Below are positions 2,370-10,145 of a stretch of DNA of 33,576 nucleotides, piece after piece. Numbering within the stretch: the stretch's first letter is position 1; each line of letters begins with the position of its first letter. This DNA is from Pseudomonadota bacterium (GTDB taxonomy: Bacteria; Pseudomonadota; Gammaproteobacteria; Burkholderiales; Burkholderiaceae_C), in contig JAUNHQ010000034.1 of the NCBI GenBank assembly GCA_030535425.1, positions 1-33,576 of the forward strand, given 5' to 3'. The notes under the pieces are model-generated. The model was not told the DNA's origin and ran no database searches. It saw nothing but the letters and a program-made list of their open reading frames with translations. Made by a program: the position numbers and the translations under genes.

Positions 2370-2401
2370 ACGGGCGGCATGTCCTCTAACATGCCGCCCG
2401 T
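2370..2401. promoter_or_regulatory. Perfect 13-bp inverted repeat at the start of the sigma-54 regulator gene
   Basis: Arms ACGGGCGGCATGT (2370-2382) and ACATGCCGCCCGT (2389-2401) are exact reverse complements around the 6-nt spacer CCTCTA. Each arm carries an in-frame ATG of the regulator (2379 and 2391), and a third ATG (2403) follows at once. It could be an operator shared by the divergent map and regulator genes, or an mRNA hairpin that hides the start codons. There is no T-run, so a terminator is unlikely. Confidence 0.6.
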
Positions 2402-3932
2402 CATGCCTGCTTCGCCTGCCACGCCGTCACCGTCATCCGTTCTGCCGCTGGAGGCTGGCGCCATCCTGGCGCTGGCGGCGCGCTCCATGTTCGATCTGTT
2501 CGCCAATGCCAGCCAGGGCATGCTGCTGGTTGACCGCGATGCGCGCGTGGTGTGGATCAACGACTTGTACCGGCGCTATCTGCCCGCCTTGGGCTTTGCG
2601 CGCGAGCAGGACTTTGTGGGGCATCCCGTGGCCAGCGTGGTGCAGAACACCCAGATGCACCGCGTGCTGGAAACGGGCCAGCCCATCTTGCTGGATTTGC
2701 TGACCAACCGGGCAGGCACCTTCGTGGTCAGCCGCATCCCGCTGCGCGACGAAGCGGGCGCCGTGATTGGCGCCCTGGGCATCGTGCTGTTCGATCAGCC
2801 GGCAGCCAACCTGCAACCGCTGATCGCCAAGTTTGCCCGCTTGCAGCAAGAGCTGGATGCCGCGCGGCGTGAGCTGGCCTTGCAGCGCAGCCGCCCGGCC
2901 ACGCCTGGGCAGCGCCAGGCGCGCCACAGTTTTGCCAGCTTCATTGGTAGCAGTGCCGCGGCGGTGGCCGTCAAGCGCCAGGCCCGGCGCGCGGCCCAAT
3001 CGGCCAGCCCGGTGCTGCTGCTGGGCGAAACCGGCACAGGCAAGGAGTTGCTGGCCCATGCCATCCACGCGGCATCGGCGCGCGCGGGCGGGCCGCTGGT
3101 CAGCGTCAACATTGCCGCCATTCCGGAAACGCTGCTGGAAGCCGAGTTCTTTGGCGTTGCCCCTGGTGCCTACACAGGCGCAGGCAGCAAAGGCCGCCAA
3201 GGCAAGTTCAAGCTGGCCGATGGCGGCACGCTGTTTCTGGACGAGATTGGTGACATGCCCATCAGCTTGCAGGCCAAGCTGCTGCGCGCTCTGCAGGAAG
3301 GCGAAATCGAGCCGCTGGGCAGCAACCAACTGCAACCCTTTGACGCACGCATCATCGCCGCCACCAGCCGCGATTTGCCCGCGATGGTGCGCCAGGGGCG
3401 TTTTCGCGAAGACCTGTACTACCGCCTGAATGTGCTGCCCATCCATGTGCCGCCACTGCGTGCCCGGCGCAGCGATCTGCCTGCGCTGGTGGAAGCCTTG
3501 GGCGAAGACATGGCCCAGCGCGGCACCCCGCCGCCTGAGCTGACCCCCGCCGCCATGGCACTGCTGGCTGCGCAGCACTGGCGCGGCAACATCCGCGAGC
3601 TGCGCAACGTGCTGGAGCAAGCCGTGCTCAGCGGCGATGGCGGCGTGCTGGATGCACCGCACATGGCGGCCGTGCTGCGCCAGTCGGGCCTGTCAGAGCT
3701 GGCGCCTGCCGCGGCTTGGCCGCCCGAGCTGTCTGCCAGTGCCTCGCCTGGGGCCGATGACGCCTTGTTGCGCCCGTTGGCCGAGCAGGTGGCTGAGCTG
3801 GAGCAGCGCGCCATTGCCGCCGCGCTAGCCGCTTGCCAAGGCAACAAGCTGGCCGCTGCGCGCCGCTTGGGCATCTCGCGCGCTAAGCTGTATGACCGTC
3901 TGGAAAACCCTGATCTTTTTTCGGGCATTTGA
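2391..3932 (+). CDS. Sigma-54-dependent transcriptional activator (PAS - AAA+ - Fis HTH)
   Basis: Bacterial enhancer-binding protein that remodels sigma-54 RNA polymerase by ATP hydrolysis. From the ATG at 2391 (513 residues): a PAS-like sensor at about 20-140 (starts MFDLFANASQGMLLVDRDAR), a linker with coiled-coil character, and the AAA+ domain with Walker A GETGTGKE (212-219), the sigma-54 contact loop GAYTGA (259-264, Tyr in place of Phe), Walker B LFLDE (281-285) and the arginine-finger region REDLYYRL. A Fis-type helix-turn-helix NKLAAARRLGISRAKLYDRL ends the protein (485-504). No phosphoreceiver domain is visible, so activation is probably by a ligand bound to the PAS domain (inference). 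The start is uncertain: in-frame ATGs at 2355, 2379, 2391 and 2403 all lack a clear ribosome site. It is followed immediately by a large dyad and a -24/-12 promoter, so the adjacent transporter operon is the obvious target. Confidence 0.93.
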   Translation: MPPVMPASPATPSPSSVLPLEAGAILALAARSMFDLFANASQGMLLVDRDARVVWINDLYRRYLPALGFAREQDFVGHPVASVVQNTQMHRVLETGQPILLDLLTNRAGTFVVSRIPLRDEAGAVIGALGIVLFDQPAANLQPLIAKFARLQQELDAARRELALQRSRPATPGQRQARHSFASFIGSSAAAVAVKRQARRAAQSASPVLLLGETGTGKELLAHAIHAASARAGGPLVSVNIAAIPETLLEAEFFGVAPGAYTGAGSKGRQGKFKLADGGTLFLDEIGDMPISLQAKLLRALQEGEIEPLGSNQLQPFDARIIAATSRDLPAMVRQGRFREDLYYRLNVLPIHVPPLRARRSDLPALVEALGEDMAQRGTPPPELTPAAMALLAAQHWRGNIRELRNVLEQAVLSGDGGVLDAPHMAAVLRQSGLSELAPAAAWPPELSASASPGADDALLRPLAEQVAELEQRAIAAALAACQGNKLAAARRLGISRAKLYDRLENPDLFSGI

Positions 3933-3970
3933 CTAATATTTAGACATTTCATTGTCTGAATATCAGTCAA
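3929..3970. promoter_or_regulatory. Large near-perfect dyad: probable upstream activating sequence for the sigma-54 activator
   Basis: Arms at 3929-3946 and 3953-3970 are complementary at 16 of 18 positions around the spacer TTTCAT; the inner core is AGACA-N6-TGTCT. Each arm also contains a smaller dyad (CTAATATTTAG at 3933-3943 and CTGAATATCAG at 3956-3966) whose centres are 23 bp apart, about two helical turns. The site is AT-rich in a GC-rich context, overlaps the regulator stop codon and lies about 165-180 bp upstream of the -24/-12 promoter, a usual enhancer distance. A terminator is less likely because no T-run follows. Confidence 0.7.
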
Positions 3971-4029
3971 TGCGCGGCTTGGTGCTGCCTTTTACCTTGG
4001 CAGGGCGCGCGCCGCAGCCTGTCCATGAA

Positions 4030-4085
4030 ACGGGTCTGTGAACGGGTCTGCGCCTGGTGCTGGGCCGCGTATCGCCCAACCAGGC
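4030..4085. other. Tandem 9-mer and imperfect hairpin between enhancer dyad and promoter
   Basis: ACGGGTCTG occurs twice (4030-4038 and 4042-4050) in a 12-bp register. Just after it, GCCTGGT (4052-4058) pairs with ACCAGGC (4079-4085) and GGGC (4062-4065) with GCCC (4074-4077). This lies in the looped region between the putative enhancer and the promoter. No specific protein site is recognised. Confidence 0.3.
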
Positions 4086-4117
4086 CAACCCCTAGCCGGG
4101 CCTACCCAGCGGGATGC

Positions 4118-4134
4118 CTGGCACGCCATATGCA
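4118..4134 (+). promoter_or_regulatory. Sigma-54 (-24/-12) promoter of the transporter operon
   Basis: CTGGCACGCCATATGCA matches the consensus YTGGCACGRNNNTTGCW at nearly all positions, with GG (4120-4121) and GC (4132-4133) separated by exactly 10 bases. Transcription would begin near 4145, leaving a leader of about 27 nt that includes AGGAG (4158-4162) before the ATG at 4172. Confidence 0.85.
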
Positions 4135-4171
4135 ATGAGCGGGTGCAGAACTACGACAGGAGATATGTCCC

Positions 4172-5359
4172 ATGCATCGCCGCACCCTCATCAGCTTCAG
4201 CTCCCTGGCCGCCCTGGCGGCGCTGTCTGGCCCCGCCCTGGCCGCGGGCGATATCAAGATTGCCCATGTCTACAGCAAGACCGGCCCGCTGGAAGCCTAT
4301 GGCAAGCAAACCCACACTGGCCTGATGATGGGCCTGCACTACGCCACTGGCGGCACCATGCAGGTAGCGGGCAGGAAGCTGGTGGTGATTGAAAAAGACG
4401 ACCAGGGCAAGCCCGACCTGGGCAAGAGCCAGCTGGCTGCTGCCTACGCCGACGACAAGGCCGATCTGGCCGTCGGCCCCACCTCCAGCGGCGTGGCCCT
4501 GGCCATGCTGCCGGTGGCCGAGGAGTACAAGAAGATTTTGCTGGTCGAGCCCGCCGTGGCCGACAGCATCACCGGCGACAAGTGGAACAAGTACATCTTC
4601 CGCACGGGTCGCAATTCCAGCCAGGACGCCATTGCCAACGCCGTGGCGCTGGACAAGCCAGACACCGTCATCGCCACGCTGGCGCAGGATTACGCCTTTG
4701 GTCGCGACGGCGTCAAGGCTTTCAAGGACGCACTGAAAAAAGCCAAGCTGGTGCATGAGGAATACCTGCCGACCAACACCACGGATTTCACCGCCGGTGC
4801 GCAGCGCCTGATCGACAAGCTCAAGGGCCAGCCCGGCCGCAAGATCATCTTCGTCATCTGGGCGGGCGCGGGCAACCCCTTCAAGATCGCCGACCTGGAC
4901 TTGAAGCGCCACGGCATCGAAATCGCCACTGGCGGCAACATCCTGCCGGCCATGGCCGCCTACAAGAATCTGCCGGGCATGGAAGGGGCCACGTACTACT
5001 ACTTCGGCATTCCCAAGAACCCCGTGAACGAGGCGCTGGTGTCCGAGCACTACAAGCAGTTCAAGCAGCCGCCGGACTTTTTCACCGCAGGGGGTTTTTC
5101 AGCCGCCATGGCCATTGTCACGGCCTTGAAGGCCAGCGGCGGCGACACGGGCACCAACAAGCTCATCAAGACCATGGAAGGCATGAGCTTTGAAACGCCC
5201 AAGGGCAAGATGACCTTCCGCACGCAAGACCACCAGGCCATGCAGAGCATGTACCACTTCAAGATCAAGGTGGACCCGGCCTTTGCCTGGGGCGTGCCTG
5301 AACTGGTGCGCGAGATCAAGCCCGAGGACATGCAGGTGCCCGTGCGCAACGGGCGCTGA
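4172..5359 (+). CDS. ABC transporter periplasmic substrate-binding protein (LivJ/LivK-like, Peripla_BP_6)
   Basis: Captures a small ligand in the periplasm for the adjacent LivGFHM-type importer. The 395 residues begin with a Sec signal peptide (MHRRTLISFSSLAALAALSG, probable cleavage after ALA at about residue 24). The mature protein starts GDIKIAHVYSKTGPLEAYGK, the family's typical first strand and ligand loop. Further landmarks are VGPTSSGVALAMLPVAEE, IFRTGRNSSQDAIANAVA and ATLAQDYAFGRDGVKAF, the usual two-lobed fold. It begins 10 nt after an AGGAG ribosome site and directly under the -24/-12 promoter. Members of this family carry branched-chain amino acids, amides, urea or aromatic acids; the ligand cannot be read from the sequence. 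The companion hydrolase suggests an ester or amide, as inference only. Confidence 0.93.
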   Translation: MHRRTLISFSSLAALAALSGPALAAGDIKIAHVYSKTGPLEAYGKQTHTGLMMGLHYATGGTMQVAGRKLVVIEKDDQGKPDLGKSQLAAAYADDKADLAVGPTSSGVALAMLPVAEEYKKILLVEPAVADSITGDKWNKYIFRTGRNSSQDAIANAVALDKPDTVIATLAQDYAFGRDGVKAFKDALKKAKLVHEEYLPTNTTDFTAGAQRLIDKLKGQPGRKIIFVIWAGAGNPFKIADLDLKRHGIEIATGGNILPAMAAYKNLPGMEGATYYYFGIPKNPVNEALVSEHYKQFKQPPDFFTAGGFSAAMAIVTALKASGGDTGTNKLIKTMEGMSFETPKGKMTFRTQDHQAMQSMYHFKIKVDPAFAWGVPELVREIKPEDMQVPVRNGR

Positions 5360-5368
5360 AGGCGCCCG
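5350..5368 (+). other. Hairpin across the stop codon of the binding-protein gene
   Basis: CGGGCGC (5350-5356) pairs with GCGCCCG (5362-5368) around the loop TGAAG, which contains the stop codon. No T-run follows, so it is not a simple terminator; a role in 3'-end stability or attenuation is inference. Confidence 0.45.
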
Positions 5369-5426
5369 GGTGCCCGCATGGCTGTAATGGCGGCCTGGCT
5401 TGGCCTTTTGCCGCCCAAGCCGGTTG

Positions 5427-5447
5427 ATGGCGGCTGCGTGCCGCCAT
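5427..5447 (+). other. Perfect 8-bp hairpin in the binding protein-livG intergenic region
   Basis: ATGGCGGC (5427-5434) pairs with GCCGCCAT (5440-5447) around TGCGT. It lies in the 196-nt gap that separates the binding-protein gene from livG, while the genes after livG overlap. Such hairpins often protect the upstream mRNA so that binding protein exceeds transporter; that role is inferred here. Confidence 0.45.
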
Positions 5448-5555
5448 GAAGCTGAAAAACCGGGTTTCATTCGCGCTGCCTGCGCTGGCGGTGCAGGTCT
5501 GCTTTTAGTCGTGACGTGCATCCGTGTCATGGTGTTTTCCCACTGAACATTTTTC

Positions 5556-6320
5556 ATGCTTTCGACCGAGAACCTGACCATCCGCTTTGGCGGCCATGTG
5601 GCCGTCAACGCGGTGACGTGCAGCTTTGCGCCGGGCACGTTGACGGCCATCGTCGGCCCCAACGGCGCGGGTAAAACGACGTATTTCAACCTGATCTCGG
5701 GCCAGCTCAAGGCCACGGCGGGCAGCGTGCGGCTGGGCGGACGAGACTTGTCCGGGCTGCCGCCGTCGGCGCGCACGCGTGCGGGGCTGGGGCGTGCATT
5801 CCAGCTCACCAACCTGTTTCCCAACCTGTCAGTGCTGGAGAACGTGCGCCTGGCAGTGCAGGCCACGCGCCATGCGGGGCTGAACCTGTTGAGTATCTGG
5901 AGCGATCACCGCGAGATCACGCGGCGCGCGCACGAGATTCTGGAGGCCGTGTCCATGGGCGAGCGCCAGCACATGCCCGTGGCCAGTCTGCCGCATGGCG
6001 ATCAGCGCAAGCTGGAGGTGGCGCTGCTGATGGCGCTGGACCCGCAGGTCTATATGTTTGACGAGCCCACCGCAGGCATGAACCATGACGAAGCGCCCGT
6101 GATCCTGAATCTGATTCGCGAGCTGAAAAAGGACAAAACCAAAACCATCTTGCTGGTGGAGCACAAGATGGATGTGGTGCGCGAGCTGGCCGATCGCATC
6201 ATCGTGCTGACCAACGGCACGCTGGTGGCCGATGGCGAGCCGGCCGAGGTGATTGCCTCGCCCGTGGTGCAACAGGCCTACCTGGGCGTGGCGGCGGCTG
6301 AGGCGGAGGAGGGCGCATGA
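5556..6320 (+). CDS. livG: Branched-chain-type ABC transporter ATPase, LivG family
   Basis: One of the two cytoplasmic ATPases that power the HAAT-family importer. 254 residues, the family's usual length. Walker A GPNGAGKTT at 34-42, Q-loop in AFQLTNLF, signature region LPHGDQRKLEVA (LivG proteins use a divergent signature rather than LSGGQ), Walker B VYMFDEPTAGM and switch His in LLVEHKMDVV. The symbol denotes the family; the substrate may not be leucine. No Shine-Dalgarno sequence is obvious before the ATG at 5556, so expression relative to the binding protein may be low. The 3' end overlaps livF by four bases (ATGA). Confidence 0.93.
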   Translation: MLSTENLTIRFGGHVAVNAVTCSFAPGTLTAIVGPNGAGKTTYFNLISGQLKATAGSVRLGGRDLSGLPPSARTRAGLGRAFQLTNLFPNLSVLENVRLAVQATRHAGLNLLSIWSDHREITRRAHEILEAVSMGERQHMPVASLPHGDQRKLEVALLMALDPQVYMFDEPTAGMNHDEAPVILNLIRELKKDKTKTILLVEHKMDVVRELADRIIVLTNGTLVADGEPAEVIASPVVQQAYLGVAAAEAEEGA

Positions 6321-7045
6321 GCCAGGATGTGTTGCTTGAGCTGCAAGGGGTGCACACGCATATCGGTGCCTACCACATCCTTCACGGCGTGGATTTGCAG
6401 GTGCCGCGCGGGCAGTTGACCATGCTGCTGGGGCGCAATGGGGCGGGCAAGACCACCACGCTGCGCACCATCATGGGCCTGTGGCGTGCCAGCGCGGGCC
6501 GCATCACTTTCAACGGGCAGGACATCTCGGCCTGGCCCACGCCGCGCATCGCGCAGCAGGGTGTGGCCTACGTGCCGGAGAACATGGGCATTTTTGCCGA
6601 CCTGACCGTGAAGGAGAACATGCTGCTGTCCGCGCGCAGCGCACGCACGGCGGCGCAACTGGATGAGGCGCGCTTGCAGTGGATCTTCTCGCTGTTCCCG
6701 GCCATCGAGAAGTTCTGGAACTACCCCGCGGGCAAGCTGTCTGGCGGGCAAAAGCAGATGCTGGCCGTGGGCCGCGCCATCACTGAGCCGCGCGAGCTGC
6801 TCATCATCGACGAACCCAGCAAGGGCCTGGCGCCCGCCATTGTCAACAACATGATCGATGCCTTCTCACAACTCAAGGCCAGCGGCGTGAGCATTTTGCT
6901 GGTGGAGCAAAACCTCAGCTTTGCCAAACGTCTGGGCGACACGGTGGCGGTGATGGACGATGGCCGCGTGGTGCATACGGGCTCCATGCAGGCGCTGTCC
7001 GAGGATGAGGCTTTGCAGCAATCGCTGCTGGGGCTGTCGCTATGA
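6317..7045 (+). CDS. livF: Branched-chain-type ABC transporter ATPase, LivF family
   Basis: Second ATPase of the heterodimeric motor. 242 residues with Walker A GRNGAGKTT (39-47), Q-loop and partner contacts in VAYVPENMGIFADLTVKEN (the VPE motif is typical of LivF), signature KLSGGQKQMLAVGRA, Walker B LLIIDEPSKGLAP and switch region LLVEQNLSFA, where LivF has Gln in place of the usual His. It starts inside the livG stop (ATGA) and its own stop overlaps the livH start the same way, so the three genes are translationally coupled. The ligand is set by the binding protein and permeases, not by this subunit. Confidence 0.94.
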   Translation: MSQDVLLELQGVHTHIGAYHILHGVDLQVPRGQLTMLLGRNGAGKTTTLRTIMGLWRASAGRITFNGQDISAWPTPRIAQQGVAYVPENMGIFADLTVKENMLLSARSARTAAQLDEARLQWIFSLFPAIEKFWNYPAGKLSGGQKQMLAVGRAITEPRELLIIDEPSKGLAPAIVNNMIDAFSQLKASGVSILLVEQNLSFAKRLGDTVAVMDDGRVVHTGSMQALSEDEALQQSLLGLSL

Positions 7046-8028
7046 ACGGCACGACACGCATGGACTACAAGCCCTTGCTGCTGGTGCCGCTGGCGGCGCT
7101 CGTGGCGCTGCCGCTGGTGGGCTCGGGCAGCACTTGGCTGACGCTGACCGTGGCCGGGCTGGCCATGGGCATGATTATCTTCATCATCGCCTCGGGGCTG
7201 ACGCTGGTGTTCGGCCTGATGGACGTGCTGAATTTCGGGCACGGCGTGTTTATTGCGCTGGGCGCCTTCGTGGCCGCCAGCGTGCTGGGCAGCATGGGCG
7301 ACTGGACGGCTTCGGCCAGCTTGTGGCGCAACCTGGTGGCGGTGTTGCCCGCGATGCTGGTGGCCATGCTGGTGGCGGGGGCGCTGGGGCTGGCGTTTGA
7401 GCGTTTCATCGTGCGCCCGGTCTATGGCCAGCACCTCAAGCAGATTCTCATCACCATGGGCGGCATGATCATTGGCGAGGAGCTGATCAAGGTGATCTGG
7501 GGGCCGCAGCAGATTCCGCTGCCGCTGCCCGAGGGCATGCGCGGCGCGGTGCTGCTGGGTGATGCGGCGGTGGAGAAATACCGCCTGCTGGCGGTGGCTG
7601 TGGGGGCGGCGGTGTTTGCGGCCCAGGTCTGGGTGCTGACGCGCACCAAGGTGGGCCTGCTGATCCGCGCGGGCGTGCAAGACGGCGAGATGGTGCAGGC
7701 GCTGGGCTACCGCATCCGCCGCTTGTTCGTGGGCGTGTTTACCGTGGGCAGCGCGCTGGCCGGGCTGGGCGGCGTGATGTGGGGGCTGTACCAGCAAAGC
7801 GTGGTGCCGCAGATGGGCGCGCAGGTCAATGTGCTGATCTTCATCGTCATCATCATCGGTGGCTTGGGCAGCACGCTGGGTGCGCTCATCGGCGCCTTGC
7901 TCGTGGGGCTGATGGCCAACTACACCGGCTTTCTGGCGCCCAAGCTGGCTTTGTTTTCCAACATCGCGCTCATGGTCGCCATCTTGCTGTGGCGCCCGCA
8001 GGGTGTGTACCCGGTGGCCAACCGCTGA
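7042..8028 (+). CDS. livH: Branched-chain-type ABC transporter permease, LivH family
   Basis: Inner-membrane channel subunit of the importer. 328 residues with about eight hydrophobic segments. The family hallmark is IASGLTLVFGLMDVLNFGHG near residues 50-70, followed by a long periplasmic loop and, near the C-terminus, LIFIVIIIGGLGSTLGALIGALLVGL, which includes the glycine-rich coupling region. The start ATG at 7042 overlaps the livF stop. Unlike the preceding junctions, the gap to livM is about 100 nt and is occupied by an ATAGCT-type interspersed repeat. Confidence 0.92.
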   Translation: MNGTTRMDYKPLLLVPLAALVALPLVGSGSTWLTLTVAGLAMGMIIFIIASGLTLVFGLMDVLNFGHGVFIALGAFVAASVLGSMGDWTASASLWRNLVAVLPAMLVAMLVAGALGLAFERFIVRPVYGQHLKQILITMGGMIIGEELIKVIWGPQQIPLPLPEGMRGAVLLGDAAVEKYRLLAVAVGAAVFAAQVWVLTRTKVGLLIRAGVQDGEMVQALGYRIRRLFVGVFTVGSALAGLGGVMWGLYQQSVVPQMGAQVNVLIFIVIIIGGLGSTLGALIGALLVGLMANYTGFLAPKLALFSNIALMVAILLWRPQGVYPVANR

Positions 8029-8044
8029 AAGGAGATTGGCCATG

Positions 8045-8106
8045 ATAACTATAAAATCAATAGCTAAAAACGCGCGCCAATCAAGCGCAAATGCTATTTT
8101 TTGTTT
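8045..8106 (+). repeat. ATAGCT-family interspersed repeat, copy A (within the transporter operon)
   Basis: Contains CTATAAAATCAATAGCT, able to form a small stem, then a GC-rich middle and the hallmark end GCGCAAATGCTATTTTTT. It shares ATAGCT, a spacer of about 20-22 nt and GCGCAAATG with copies at 19701, 24061 and 30908, all in the same orientation. It splits livH from livM. Confidence 0.6.
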
Positions 8107-8127
8107 TATGTCCGAAAGGGGTGCCGC

Positions 8128-9195
8128 ATGCTGAGCCGCCTGCTTTCGCACGATTTGCCCCGCAACAGGCTGCTCAGCCTGATGCTGCTGGCCATTTTGC
8201 TGGGCCTGGCGTTCGCGCCCTTCATCTTTCCCGGTGTGAAGGCGCTGAATGTGGCAGCCAAGATTTTGGTGTTCATCGTGCTGGTGGCGGGGTTTGACCT
8301 GCTGCTGGGCTACACGGGCATCGTCAGTTTTGCGCACACCATGTTTTTTGGCATCGGCGCCTATGGGGTGGCCATTGCTTCCAGCCGGCTGGGCGCGAGC
8401 TGGCAGGCGCTGGGCCTGGGGGTGGGCGCGGCACTGCTGGTGTCGCTGGCGCTGTCGGTGCTGATCGGGCTGTTTTCTCTGCGCGTGCGGGCCATCTTCT
8501 TTGCCATGATTACCCTGGCCGTGGCCGCCGCATTTCAGACCCTGGCTTCGCAGCTGTCAGACCTGACCGGCGGCGAAGACGGCCTGACCTTCCGCCTGCC
8601 GGAGTGGCTCTCGCCCAGCTTCGAGCCGTTTGAAAGCGAGTTTCTGGGGGTGCTGATCGACGGGCGCATCATCAGCTATTACCTGCTGTTCGTTTGCGCC
8701 GTGCTGCTGGTGCTGCTGTTGCTGCGCATTGTCAACTCGCCCTTCGGGCGCGTGTTGCAAGCCATTCGCGAAAACGAATTCCGTGCCGAGGCCATTGGCT
8801 ACCGCGTGGTGGTGTATCGCACGCTGGCCAGCGTGCTGTCGGCGCTGGTGGCCTGCCTGGCCGGCTGCATGCTGGCCATCTGGCTGCGCTACAACGGGCC
8901 GGATACGTCGCTGTCCTTTGAAATCATGATGGACGTGCTGCTCATCGTCGTCATTGGCGGCATGGGCACTGTCTATGGCGCCGTGATCGGCTCGGTGCTG
9001 TTCGTGGTGGCGCAAAGCTACCTGCAGGATTTGCTGCGGCTGGGGCACGAGGCCACGGCGGCCTGGCCGCTGCTGCCCGCGCTGTTTTCGCCCGACCGCT
9101 GGCTGCTGTGGCTGGGCCTGCTGTTTGTGTTGTCGGTGTATTACTTCCCCACTGGTGTGGTGGGGCGGCTGCGCGCGCGCGGCGCGCACCACTGA
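8128..9195 (+). CDS. livM: Branched-chain-type ABC transporter permease, LivM family
   Basis: Second inner-membrane channel subunit. From the ATG at 8128 (355 residues), preceded by AAAGGGG, rather than an in-frame TTG at 8101 that lies in the repeat. About nine to ten membrane segments. Family hallmarks: VLVAGFDLLLGYTGIVSFAH with FFGIGAYG following, and the cytoplasmic loop VLQAIRENEFRAEAIGYRV that contacts the ATPases, then VVIGGMGTVYGAVIG. A stretch of acidic, polar residues (TGGEDGLTFRLPEWLS) forms the expected periplasmic loop. The hydrolase gene follows 53 nt downstream and probably belongs to the same transcript. Confidence 0.93.
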   Translation: MLSRLLSHDLPRNRLLSLMLLAILLGLAFAPFIFPGVKALNVAAKILVFIVLVAGFDLLLGYTGIVSFAHTMFFGIGAYGVAIASSRLGASWQALGLGVGAALLVSLALSVLIGLFSLRVRAIFFAMITLAVAAAFQTLASQLSDLTGGEDGLTFRLPEWLSPSFEPFESEFLGVLIDGRIISYYLLFVCAVLLVLLLLRIVNSPFGRVLQAIRENEFRAEAIGYRVVVYRTLASVLSALVACLAGCMLAIWLRYNGPDTSLSFEIMMDVLLIVVIGGMGTVYGAVIGSVLFVVAQSYLQDLLRLGHEATAAWPLLPALFSPDRWLLWLGLLFVLSVYYFPTGVVGRLRARGAHH

Positions 9196-9248
9196 GGCGG
9201 CGGCCGCAGACCGCTGGTTTTGACCCCACGTTTTTTCCCGCACCGCTC

Positions 9249-10145
9249 ATGAGCATGCCGTTTTCATCGCACTACGTTCGCTGCGCTGGCCGCGAGCTTC
9301 ACTACACCGACTGGCATCCCGCTGGCAATGCGCCCGTGCGCGGCACTGTCGTGGCCTGGCATGGCCTGGCGCGCACCGGGCGCGACATGGACGAGCTGGC
9401 CGCACACCTGTCGGCACGGGGCTGGCGCGTGGTCTGCCCCGACATGCTGGGCCGCGGGCTGAGCCAGTGGGCAGCCGATCCGCCCAAGGAATACTGCCTG
9501 GCCTTTTATGCACAGCTGGCTGAAGAGCTGCTGGCACAACTGGGCATTGCGCAATGCCACTGGGTCGGCACCTCCATGGGCGGGGCTATGGGCACTGTGG
9601 CGGCATCGGGCCTGGTGCAGCCGGCGCTGGCGCGGCGCATTTGCAGCCTGGTGCTCAACGACAACGCGCCCGAGCTGGCCGCGCCCGCGCTGGAGCGTAT
9701 CAAGGCCTATGCGGGCCAGCCGCCCGCCTTTGATACGGTGACGGCGCTGGAGAGCTTTTTCCGCACGGCTTACCAGCCCTACGGCTTTCTGACCGACGCA
9801 CAGTGGCGCCGCCTGACCGAAACCAGCACCCGGCGCCTGCCCGATGGCCGCGTGACCCCACATTACGATCCGGCCATCGTGGGCCAGTTCATCCATCACC
9901 CGCAGGACTACAGCATCTGGCCGCATTACGACGCGCTGCGCATTCCCGTGCTGTTGCTGCGCGGGCAGGCTTCAGACCTGGTGCGGCGCGAAACCGCCGA
10001 GGCCATGTGCCAGCGCGGCCCGGGCGCGCACGGCCTGCTGCAATGGATCGAGGTGCCTGACTGCGGGCACGCCCCGGCGCTGAATGTGCCGCAGCAACTG
10101 GCCTGGGTAACGGATTTTCTGGAGCGCGCCAGCCCGGTGCGCTGA
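9249..10145 (+). CDS. Alpha/beta hydrolase, last gene of the sigma-54 operon
   Basis: Predicted cytoplasmic serine hydrolase of 298 residues from the ATG at 9249 (an in-frame ATG at 9255 is an alternative). Seen: the oxyanion segment VVAWHGLARTG, PDMLGRGLS, the nucleophile elbow GTSMGG with Ser109, a likely acid at Asp243 (RGQASD) and the catalytic His274 (CGHAPAL). There is no signal peptide. The fold covers esterases, C-C hydrolases, amidases and lactonases, and the reaction cannot be assigned from sequence. Its position after the transporter, with no terminator between, suggests it hydrolyses the imported compound. Its end converges on the minus-strand DUF2145 gene 85 bp away. Confidence 0.85.
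   Translation: MSMPFSSHYVRCAGRELHYTDWHPAGNAPVRGTVVAWHGLARTGRDMDELAAHLSARGWRVVCPDMLGRGLSQWAADPPKEYCLAFYAQLAEELLAQLGIAQCHWVGTSMGGAMGTVAASGLVQPALARRICSLVLNDNAPELAAPALERIKAYAGQPPAFDTVTALESFFRTAYQPYGFLTDAQWRRLTETSTRRLPDGRVTPHYDPAIVGQFIHHPQDYSIWPHYDALRIPVLLLRGQASDLVRRETAEAMCQRGPGAHGLLQWIEVPDCGHAPALNVPQQLAWVTDFLERASPVR

Follow-up and report, generated by a model that had tools for sequence, protein, structure and literature searches.

A locus at positions 2391–10145 of a 33,576-nucleotide stretch of DNA from a Pseudomonadota bacterium (contig JAUNHQ010000034.1 of assembly GCA_030535425.1; the whole stretch is hereafter called the window) probably encodes a sigma-54-switched importer of the HAAT family for 3-hydroxybutyrate (3HB) or short 3HB oligomers, a judgement that covers import of the monomer and of the oligomers jointly. 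We propose this compound because genes for a polyhydroxybutyrate (PHB) depolymerase, a 3HB-oligomer hydrolase (3HBOH), an acetoacetate-CoA ligase and a 3HB dehydrogenase sit inside the corresponding gene blocks of relatives. A previous reading of the same DNA from its sequence only (the sequence-only reading) had suggested that the locus senses, imports and hydrolyses one compound. This suggestion fits the gene linkage described below, and the compound, which had been left open, can now be narrowed, as the relatives' genes point to 3HB or its oligomers. We infer the ligand, the effector, the direction of transport, the promoter and the enzyme activity from sequence comparison.

The window stems from a 3.3-Mb draft assembly, which consists of 144 contigs and is 88.6% complete. 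On its plus strand, the locus contains an activator gene, activator binding sites, a promoter, a binding protein gene, livG, livF, livH, livM and an alpha/beta hydrolase gene, in this order. Domain calls, an inverted repeat, a −24/−12 match and the open reading frames recovered the feature set and gene order that the sequence-only reading had described:

2391–3932, plus strand: PAS-AAA+-Fis sigma-54 activator P0001, 513 amino acids (PAS_4, Sigma54_activat, AAA_lid_14 and HTH_8 domains)
3930–3946, no strand: predicted activator binding site 1, TGACTAATATTTAGACA (repeat search and consensus in relatives)
3953–3969, no strand: predicted activator binding site 2, TGTCTGAATATCAGTCA (at a spacing of 23 bp from site 1)
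4119–4133, plus strand: predicted −24/−12 sigma-54 promoter, TGGCACGCCATATGC (transcription predicted to start near 4145)
4172–5359, plus strand: HAAT-type periplasmic binding protein P0002 (Peripla_BP_6)
5556–6320, plus strand: LivG-type ATPase P0003 (ABC_tran)
6317–7045, plus strand: LivF-type ATPase P0004 (ABC_tran)
7042–8028, plus strand: LivH-type permease P0005 (BPD_transp_2)
8128 (ATG) to 9195, plus strand, open frame from TTG 8101: LivM-type permease P0006 (BPD_transp_2)
9249–10145, plus strand: alpha/beta hydrolase P0007, predicted cytosolic 3HB-oligomer hydrolase with no visible signal peptide (domain and N-terminus)

Orthologues of the activator were searched for with the activator alone in 199 genomes. 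Besides the activator of the window, 65 orthologues with at least 52% identity were taken, with a cut placed by visual judgement where the E values jump from 3.6e-113 to 1.9e-86, and up to 14 kb downstream of each were fetched. By tool label, 60 of them belonged to the same genus or family and five to other families of the order. The activator was present in 60 of the 119 same-genus or same-family genomes searched. A lack of conserved linkage, which the sequence-only reading had named beforehand as a refuting outcome, was not observed: a full transporter followed the activator on the same strand at 54 of the 65 loci, all in the same family, and 53 of these 54 full blocks contained the hydrolase gene, the exception (L139) stopping at a contig edge. 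Six of the 11 other loci hit a contig end (L129, L132, L134, L185, L180 and L152); L129 and L132 ended after part of the block, and L134 and L185 ended at most 0.8 kb from the activator match. Several blocks carried additional genes. A chemotaxis receptor gene was located between activator and binding protein in L166, L170, L171, L172 and L178, and may serve to steer cells toward the same compound. Two tandem binding-protein genes preceded the transporter in L043, L044, L062, L074 and L125 (in L062 the transporter genes were not reached).

Genes of PHB utilization recurred in these blocks. A secreted type-2 short-chain-length polyhydroxyalkanoate depolymerase was encoded in 11 of the 54 full blocks, 3HBOH in 17, and either of the two in 20. 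Loci were also collected by means of the binding protein, and the best 80 of the 569 found in this way, many of which end at contig edges, contained the activator (72), the hydrolase (48), 3HBOH (29), the depolymerase (24), a chemotaxis receptor (6) and acetoacetate-CoA ligase (2). Family models, scored for one or two members each, gave 394 and 408 bits for the depolymerase (cut-off 280), 1056 bits for 3HBOH (cut-off 27) and 923 bits for acetoacetate-CoA ligase (cut-off 639). The enzymes leading from polymer to oligomer, from oligomer to 3HB, from 3HB to acetoacetate and from acetoacetate to its CoA ester occur at differing block positions across relatives. In the converse test, 130 genomes of the family yielded 34 strong 3HBOH matches and 29 type-2 depolymerases above the cut-off, of which 20 and 13, respectively, were in genomes for which an activator orthologue is known. 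Within these activator genomes, 13 of the 20 3HBOH genes lay at most 15 kb from the activator and one more within the block at 26 kb; for the depolymerases, these were 10 of 13 genes and one more in the block on another contig. A comparable operon is present on a plasmid of the alphaproteobacterium Mariluticola halotolerans, where genes for a sigma-54 regulator (46% identity along its length), a 3HB dehydrogenase (370 bits, cut-off 307), a binding protein (69%), the transporter and a hydrolase (50%) are consecutive. In another family of the order, genes for 3HBOH and an acyl-CoA ligase adjoin the transporter (L234). At L248:5261-8931, likewise from another family of the order, genes for a TonB-dependent receptor and a hydrolase that is 37% like P0007 lie ahead of the binding protein gene, as if a dedicated receptor carried the substrate over the outer membrane.

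Several observations weigh against 3HB or its oligomers as the substrate of this transporter. Neither secreted enzyme was found in 34 of the 54 full blocks. Past the activator match, L152 and L180 extend 4.5 kb and 1.6 kb, respectively, to the contig end without a transporter, and both belong to the same family; for L152, a different contig carries the block, which includes depolymerase, 3HBOH and hydrolase. In L153 the block, which carries 3HBOH and the hydrolase, is on the same strand, 20 kb downstream of the activator. In three of four genomes inspected (L254–L256, not L257), 3HBOH genes outside the block neighbor a different HAAT transporter, and oligomer hydrolases are therefore not exclusive to this transporter. 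Five regulators from outside the family (48–52% identity) do not adjoin this transporter; L182, L183, L184 and L187 lack it downstream of the activator. One of the five is located by an acyl-CoA ligase and another HAAT, two have 3HBOH on the other strand at 3.2 and 10.9 kb, one shows nothing, and one is cut short. Among the plasmid relatives (six matches, four inspected), three of the four loci inspected contained AMP-binding, MaoC and enoyl-CoA hydratase genes, with no named 3HB gene and with binding proteins 63–65% identical to P0002. The hydrolase of the Nitratireductor plasmid locus, the only one compared there, was not similar to P0007. The nearest promoter-like run before the Mariluticola operon, judged by eye, ends in GA, not GC. 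Neither depolymerase nor 3HBOH was found in L237–L240, loci of alphaproteobacterial type (by tool label from another class of the phylum) in which a 45–48% identical regulator is located beside the binding protein. Furthermore, the predicted operator described below was absent from the blocks of L252 and L253 at up to four mismatches.

Part of these data would suit an importer whose substrate is some other short acyl or hydroxy acid, or an ester of it, with PHB enzymes having joined it in some lineages and their products sharing the route. The blocks with neither secreted enzyme are consistent with this explanation, as are the acyl-CoA ligase, MaoC and enoyl-CoA hydratase neighbors in the three plasmid relatives. 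Nevertheless, we regard it as unlikely, since the block houses, at varied places in one relative or another, four enzymes of a single pathway and since most of the 3HBOH and depolymerase genes in activator genomes (13/20 and 10/13) are within 15 kb of the activator. The regulator at L182:5698-15410 (~52% identical) stands beside an acyl-CoA ligase gene, a different HAAT operon and an electron transfer flavoprotein gene, and is probably part of a cousin system for another acid. The second HAAT transporter of L254, L255 and L256 (genomes G102, G104 and G061) has LivG-like and LivF-like proteins with 38–39% and 41–43% identity, respectively, and a similar one follows the block in L160 and L173.

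The components of the transporter are those of an HAAT-type ABC importer, namely one Peripla_BP_6 protein, two BPD_transp_2 permeases and two ABC_tran ATPases. E. coli LivJ/LivFGHM and UrtABCDE belong to the same families and have the same set of one plus two plus two components, and this fold and gene set would also be expected of a conventional importer of branched-chain amino acids or urea that happens to have a sigma-54 regulator as its neighbor. The block differs from Liv and Urt by its own sigma-54 activator and hydrolase, and each of the five transporter proteins falls short of the curated NCBIfam cut-off for any Liv or Urt model that it matched. In addition, Thr102 and Glu226 of E. coli LivJ, which we take to be the contacts of the ligand's ammonium group, correspond to Val and Ile in P0002, with Ser79 kept, in an alignment of 24% identity that is approximate and possibly one residue off. 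By this approximate comparison, P0002 does not have the LivJ-like alpha-ammonium contacts, and its predicted residue pattern suits a ligand without an amino group. A plain amino acid or urea importer was rejected on the basis of the Liv/Urt cut-offs and the LivJ contact residues; together with the PHB genes in the blocks of relatives, they make it very improbable. The nearest solved relative of P0002 (PDB 3n0x and 3nnd, E = 1.2e-171) is presumably a binding protein of Rhodopseudomonas palustris. We know of no ligand for it, which is a further point that does not help the assignment to 3HB, and no paper pairing any two of 3N0X, 3NND and R. palustris was found in the openly accessible literature.

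GAFTGA-type loops are the motif of sigma-54 activators. P0001 has a GAYTGA loop in its translation as well as Sigma54_activat and Fis-type helix-turn-helix domains, and thus the features of a bacterial enhancer-binding protein, and RpoN is encoded in the assembly of the window (423 bits, cut-off 277). The AAA+ and Fis-type domains are common to P0001 and the receiver-less sigma-54 activators represented by the PrdR, NorR and PrpR models. P0001 scored below the cut-off of every model among the matches listed (25 of 31, including the receiver-less PrdR, NorR and PrpR type).

The predicted promoter TGGCACGCCATATGC has the GG-N10-GC spacing noted in the sequence-only reading and is the only site in the window with a single mismatch to TGGCACGN4TTGC. 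This match would carry little weight standing alone, as the window contains 23 promoter-like sites at up to two mismatches versus 31.8 expected. Its weight comes from conservation: NGGCAYRN4NTGC was found in 73 of 73 distinct gaps between activator and binding protein, the window's included, versus 0.8 expected from shuffles. The gap sample comprised 78 loci with a gap of 60–470 nt, the window's included, of which 73 were distinct; longer or unmeasurable gaps were left out.

Upstream of the promoter, an inverted repeat at 3929–3946 and 3953–3970 (18-nt arms, 89% complementary, 6-nt gap) overlaps the activator's TGA at 3930–3932. The dyad with 18-bp arms over the stop codon that the sequence-only reading had pointed out is therefore present, but it is better read as two 17-bp near-palindromes, which have four (site 1) and two (site 2) mismatches to the consensus TGTCTGAAWTTCAGACA. 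At up to four mismatches, this palindrome occurred at least once in 68 and at least twice in 42 of the 73 distinct gaps, amounting to 122 sites versus 0.55 expected, with the consensus derived from the same relatives that were later counted and that share kinship. In a half-split test, 35 of 37 held-out regions exceeded the 95th percentile of reversed regions, the consensus itself stemming from all regions. Among 54 spacings between adjacent copies, the commonest were 24 bp (19 cases), 19 bp (14) and 23 bp (6). The site centers were located at a median of 110 bp (range 66–207) from the predicted start; the two centers in the window, 207 and 184 bp upstream, lie toward the upper limit of this range, and its spacer between sites and promoter is the longest among the regions measured. 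This spacer contains a 12-bp tandem duplication at 4029–4052.

Loci with long gaps were informative about the affiliation of the sites. Among 14 regulator-anchored loci with at least 1.2 kb between activator and binding protein, five of them being the loci with the chemotaxis receptor gene in this position, 10 had a site no more than 450 bp away from the binding-protein gene, one had a site near the activator stop, three had none at the threshold, and none had a site in between. Of 10 such long-gap loci in the named set, which was collected by means of the binding protein, eight had a site by the binding-protein gene, with some genomes apparently in both sets. Because the sites remain next to the binding-protein gene even where inserted DNA separates it from the activator, we conclude that they belong with the transporter promoter. 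On the same grounds, we rejected a terminator function of the dyad and its interpretation as a component of the activator gene. A wide regulon received no support at up to two mismatches: in the window's assembly the site was found at this locus only (three further places at three mismatches), and among 21 chosen genomes 12 had a site, nine of them at the locus, with six places elsewhere and a reversed-pattern control matched in one genome. A −24/−12 promoter, upstream sites and RpoN in the genome, the sequence features of a sigma-54 operon, were all found, and the conserved sites and promoter support the local sigma-54 control that had been predicted.

According to our proposal, the locus would mediate a locally regulated uptake of extracellular PHB breakdown products. 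The PAS domain of the activator would sense the product or a metabolite of it, and the activator would bind the two 17-bp palindromes and drive RNA polymerase–sigma-54 at the −24/−12 promoter. The binding protein and LivGFHM would then bring 3HB or short 3HB oligomers into the cell, where the cytosolic alpha/beta hydrolase would cleave imported oligomers and a 3HB dehydrogenase, encoded elsewhere in the genome, would yield acetoacetate.

The least firmly held step is whether oligomers or only the monomer are imported. Tentatively, the importer may take up 3HB oligomers intact, with hydrolysis finished inside. This would be a 'selfish' polyester uptake system that includes a sigma-54 sensor of its own and is retained in some species that lack any depolymerase and live on polymer opened by others. 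An argument for oligomer import is the near-constant hydrolase, whose N-terminus shows no signal peptide. In this hydrolase, H38-G39, the GTSMGG run with S109, and H274 are kept in 27 of 27 aligned sequences, and D243 in at least 90%. It is also conceivable, within the same overall proposal and held with equal reserve, that only monomeric 3HB is imported and that the substrate of the hydrolase is a different ester or consists of PHB oligomers inside the cell. The 3HBOH of 17 of the 54 blocks, whose N-terminus appears exported in L044 (the sole one inspected), would make the monomer outside the cell, and the Mariluticola operon contains a 3HB dehydrogenase; against this stands the signal-peptide-less hydrolase as the most constant enzyme of the block (53/54), far above the secreted ones.

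In the incomplete assembly of the window, neither 3HBOH nor a type-2 depolymerase was matched, which is another point against the proposed substrate (type-1 depolymerases were not searched). These models did find matches in relatives, and the L039 depolymerase was recovered at 100% identity in G021, the genome with the nearest relative of P0001 in the sample (89% identity). A 3HB dehydrogenase is present in the window's assembly (355 bits, cut-off 307). As no secreted enzyme was found there, the host may use material freed by others. A depolymerase-gene remnant was sought between the binding protein and LivG genes of the window, and no match was obtained.

The block is flanked on the opposite strand by the following upstream neighbor and, downstream, by a gene for a DUF2145 protein:

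1509–2327, opposite strand: type I methionine aminopeptidase (294 bits, cut-off 171)

Between the LivH and LivM genes, an A+T-rich repeat-like stretch (8040–8110) includes a terminator-like hairpin on the minus strand; its near copy in L121 of the same assembly was the sole one among 261 loci.

The hbtABC genes of Ruegeria pomeroyi encode a tripartite ATP-independent periplasmic (TRAP) system. The block described here has the same predicted substrate but differs from hbtABC in being an ABC importer, not a TRAP system, and in having a sigma-54 activator and a hydrolase of its own. According to a 2023 report, hbtABC is the only confirmed bacterial 3HB uptake system (PMC10130141). Openly accessible titles and abstract openings, with subscription journals mostly outside, contained no HAAT importer for 3HB and no sigma-54 control of such a block, and the accessible parts of PMC10130141, PMC7830162, PMC13373117 and PMC7199957 do not describe a system combining HAAT, sigma-54 and PHB depolymerase. 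Hence, the parts are known, and the predicted substrate and circuit were not found described in the open literature.

PHB is a natural and also a commercial biodegradable plastic, and little is known about the bacterial uptake of its products. If our proposal is true, a substrate, a regulator, an operator and an enzyme partner would be assigned to this block, which would help to recognize PHB consumers in metagenomes by a marker and would offer a simple candidate for a 3HB-responsive switch.

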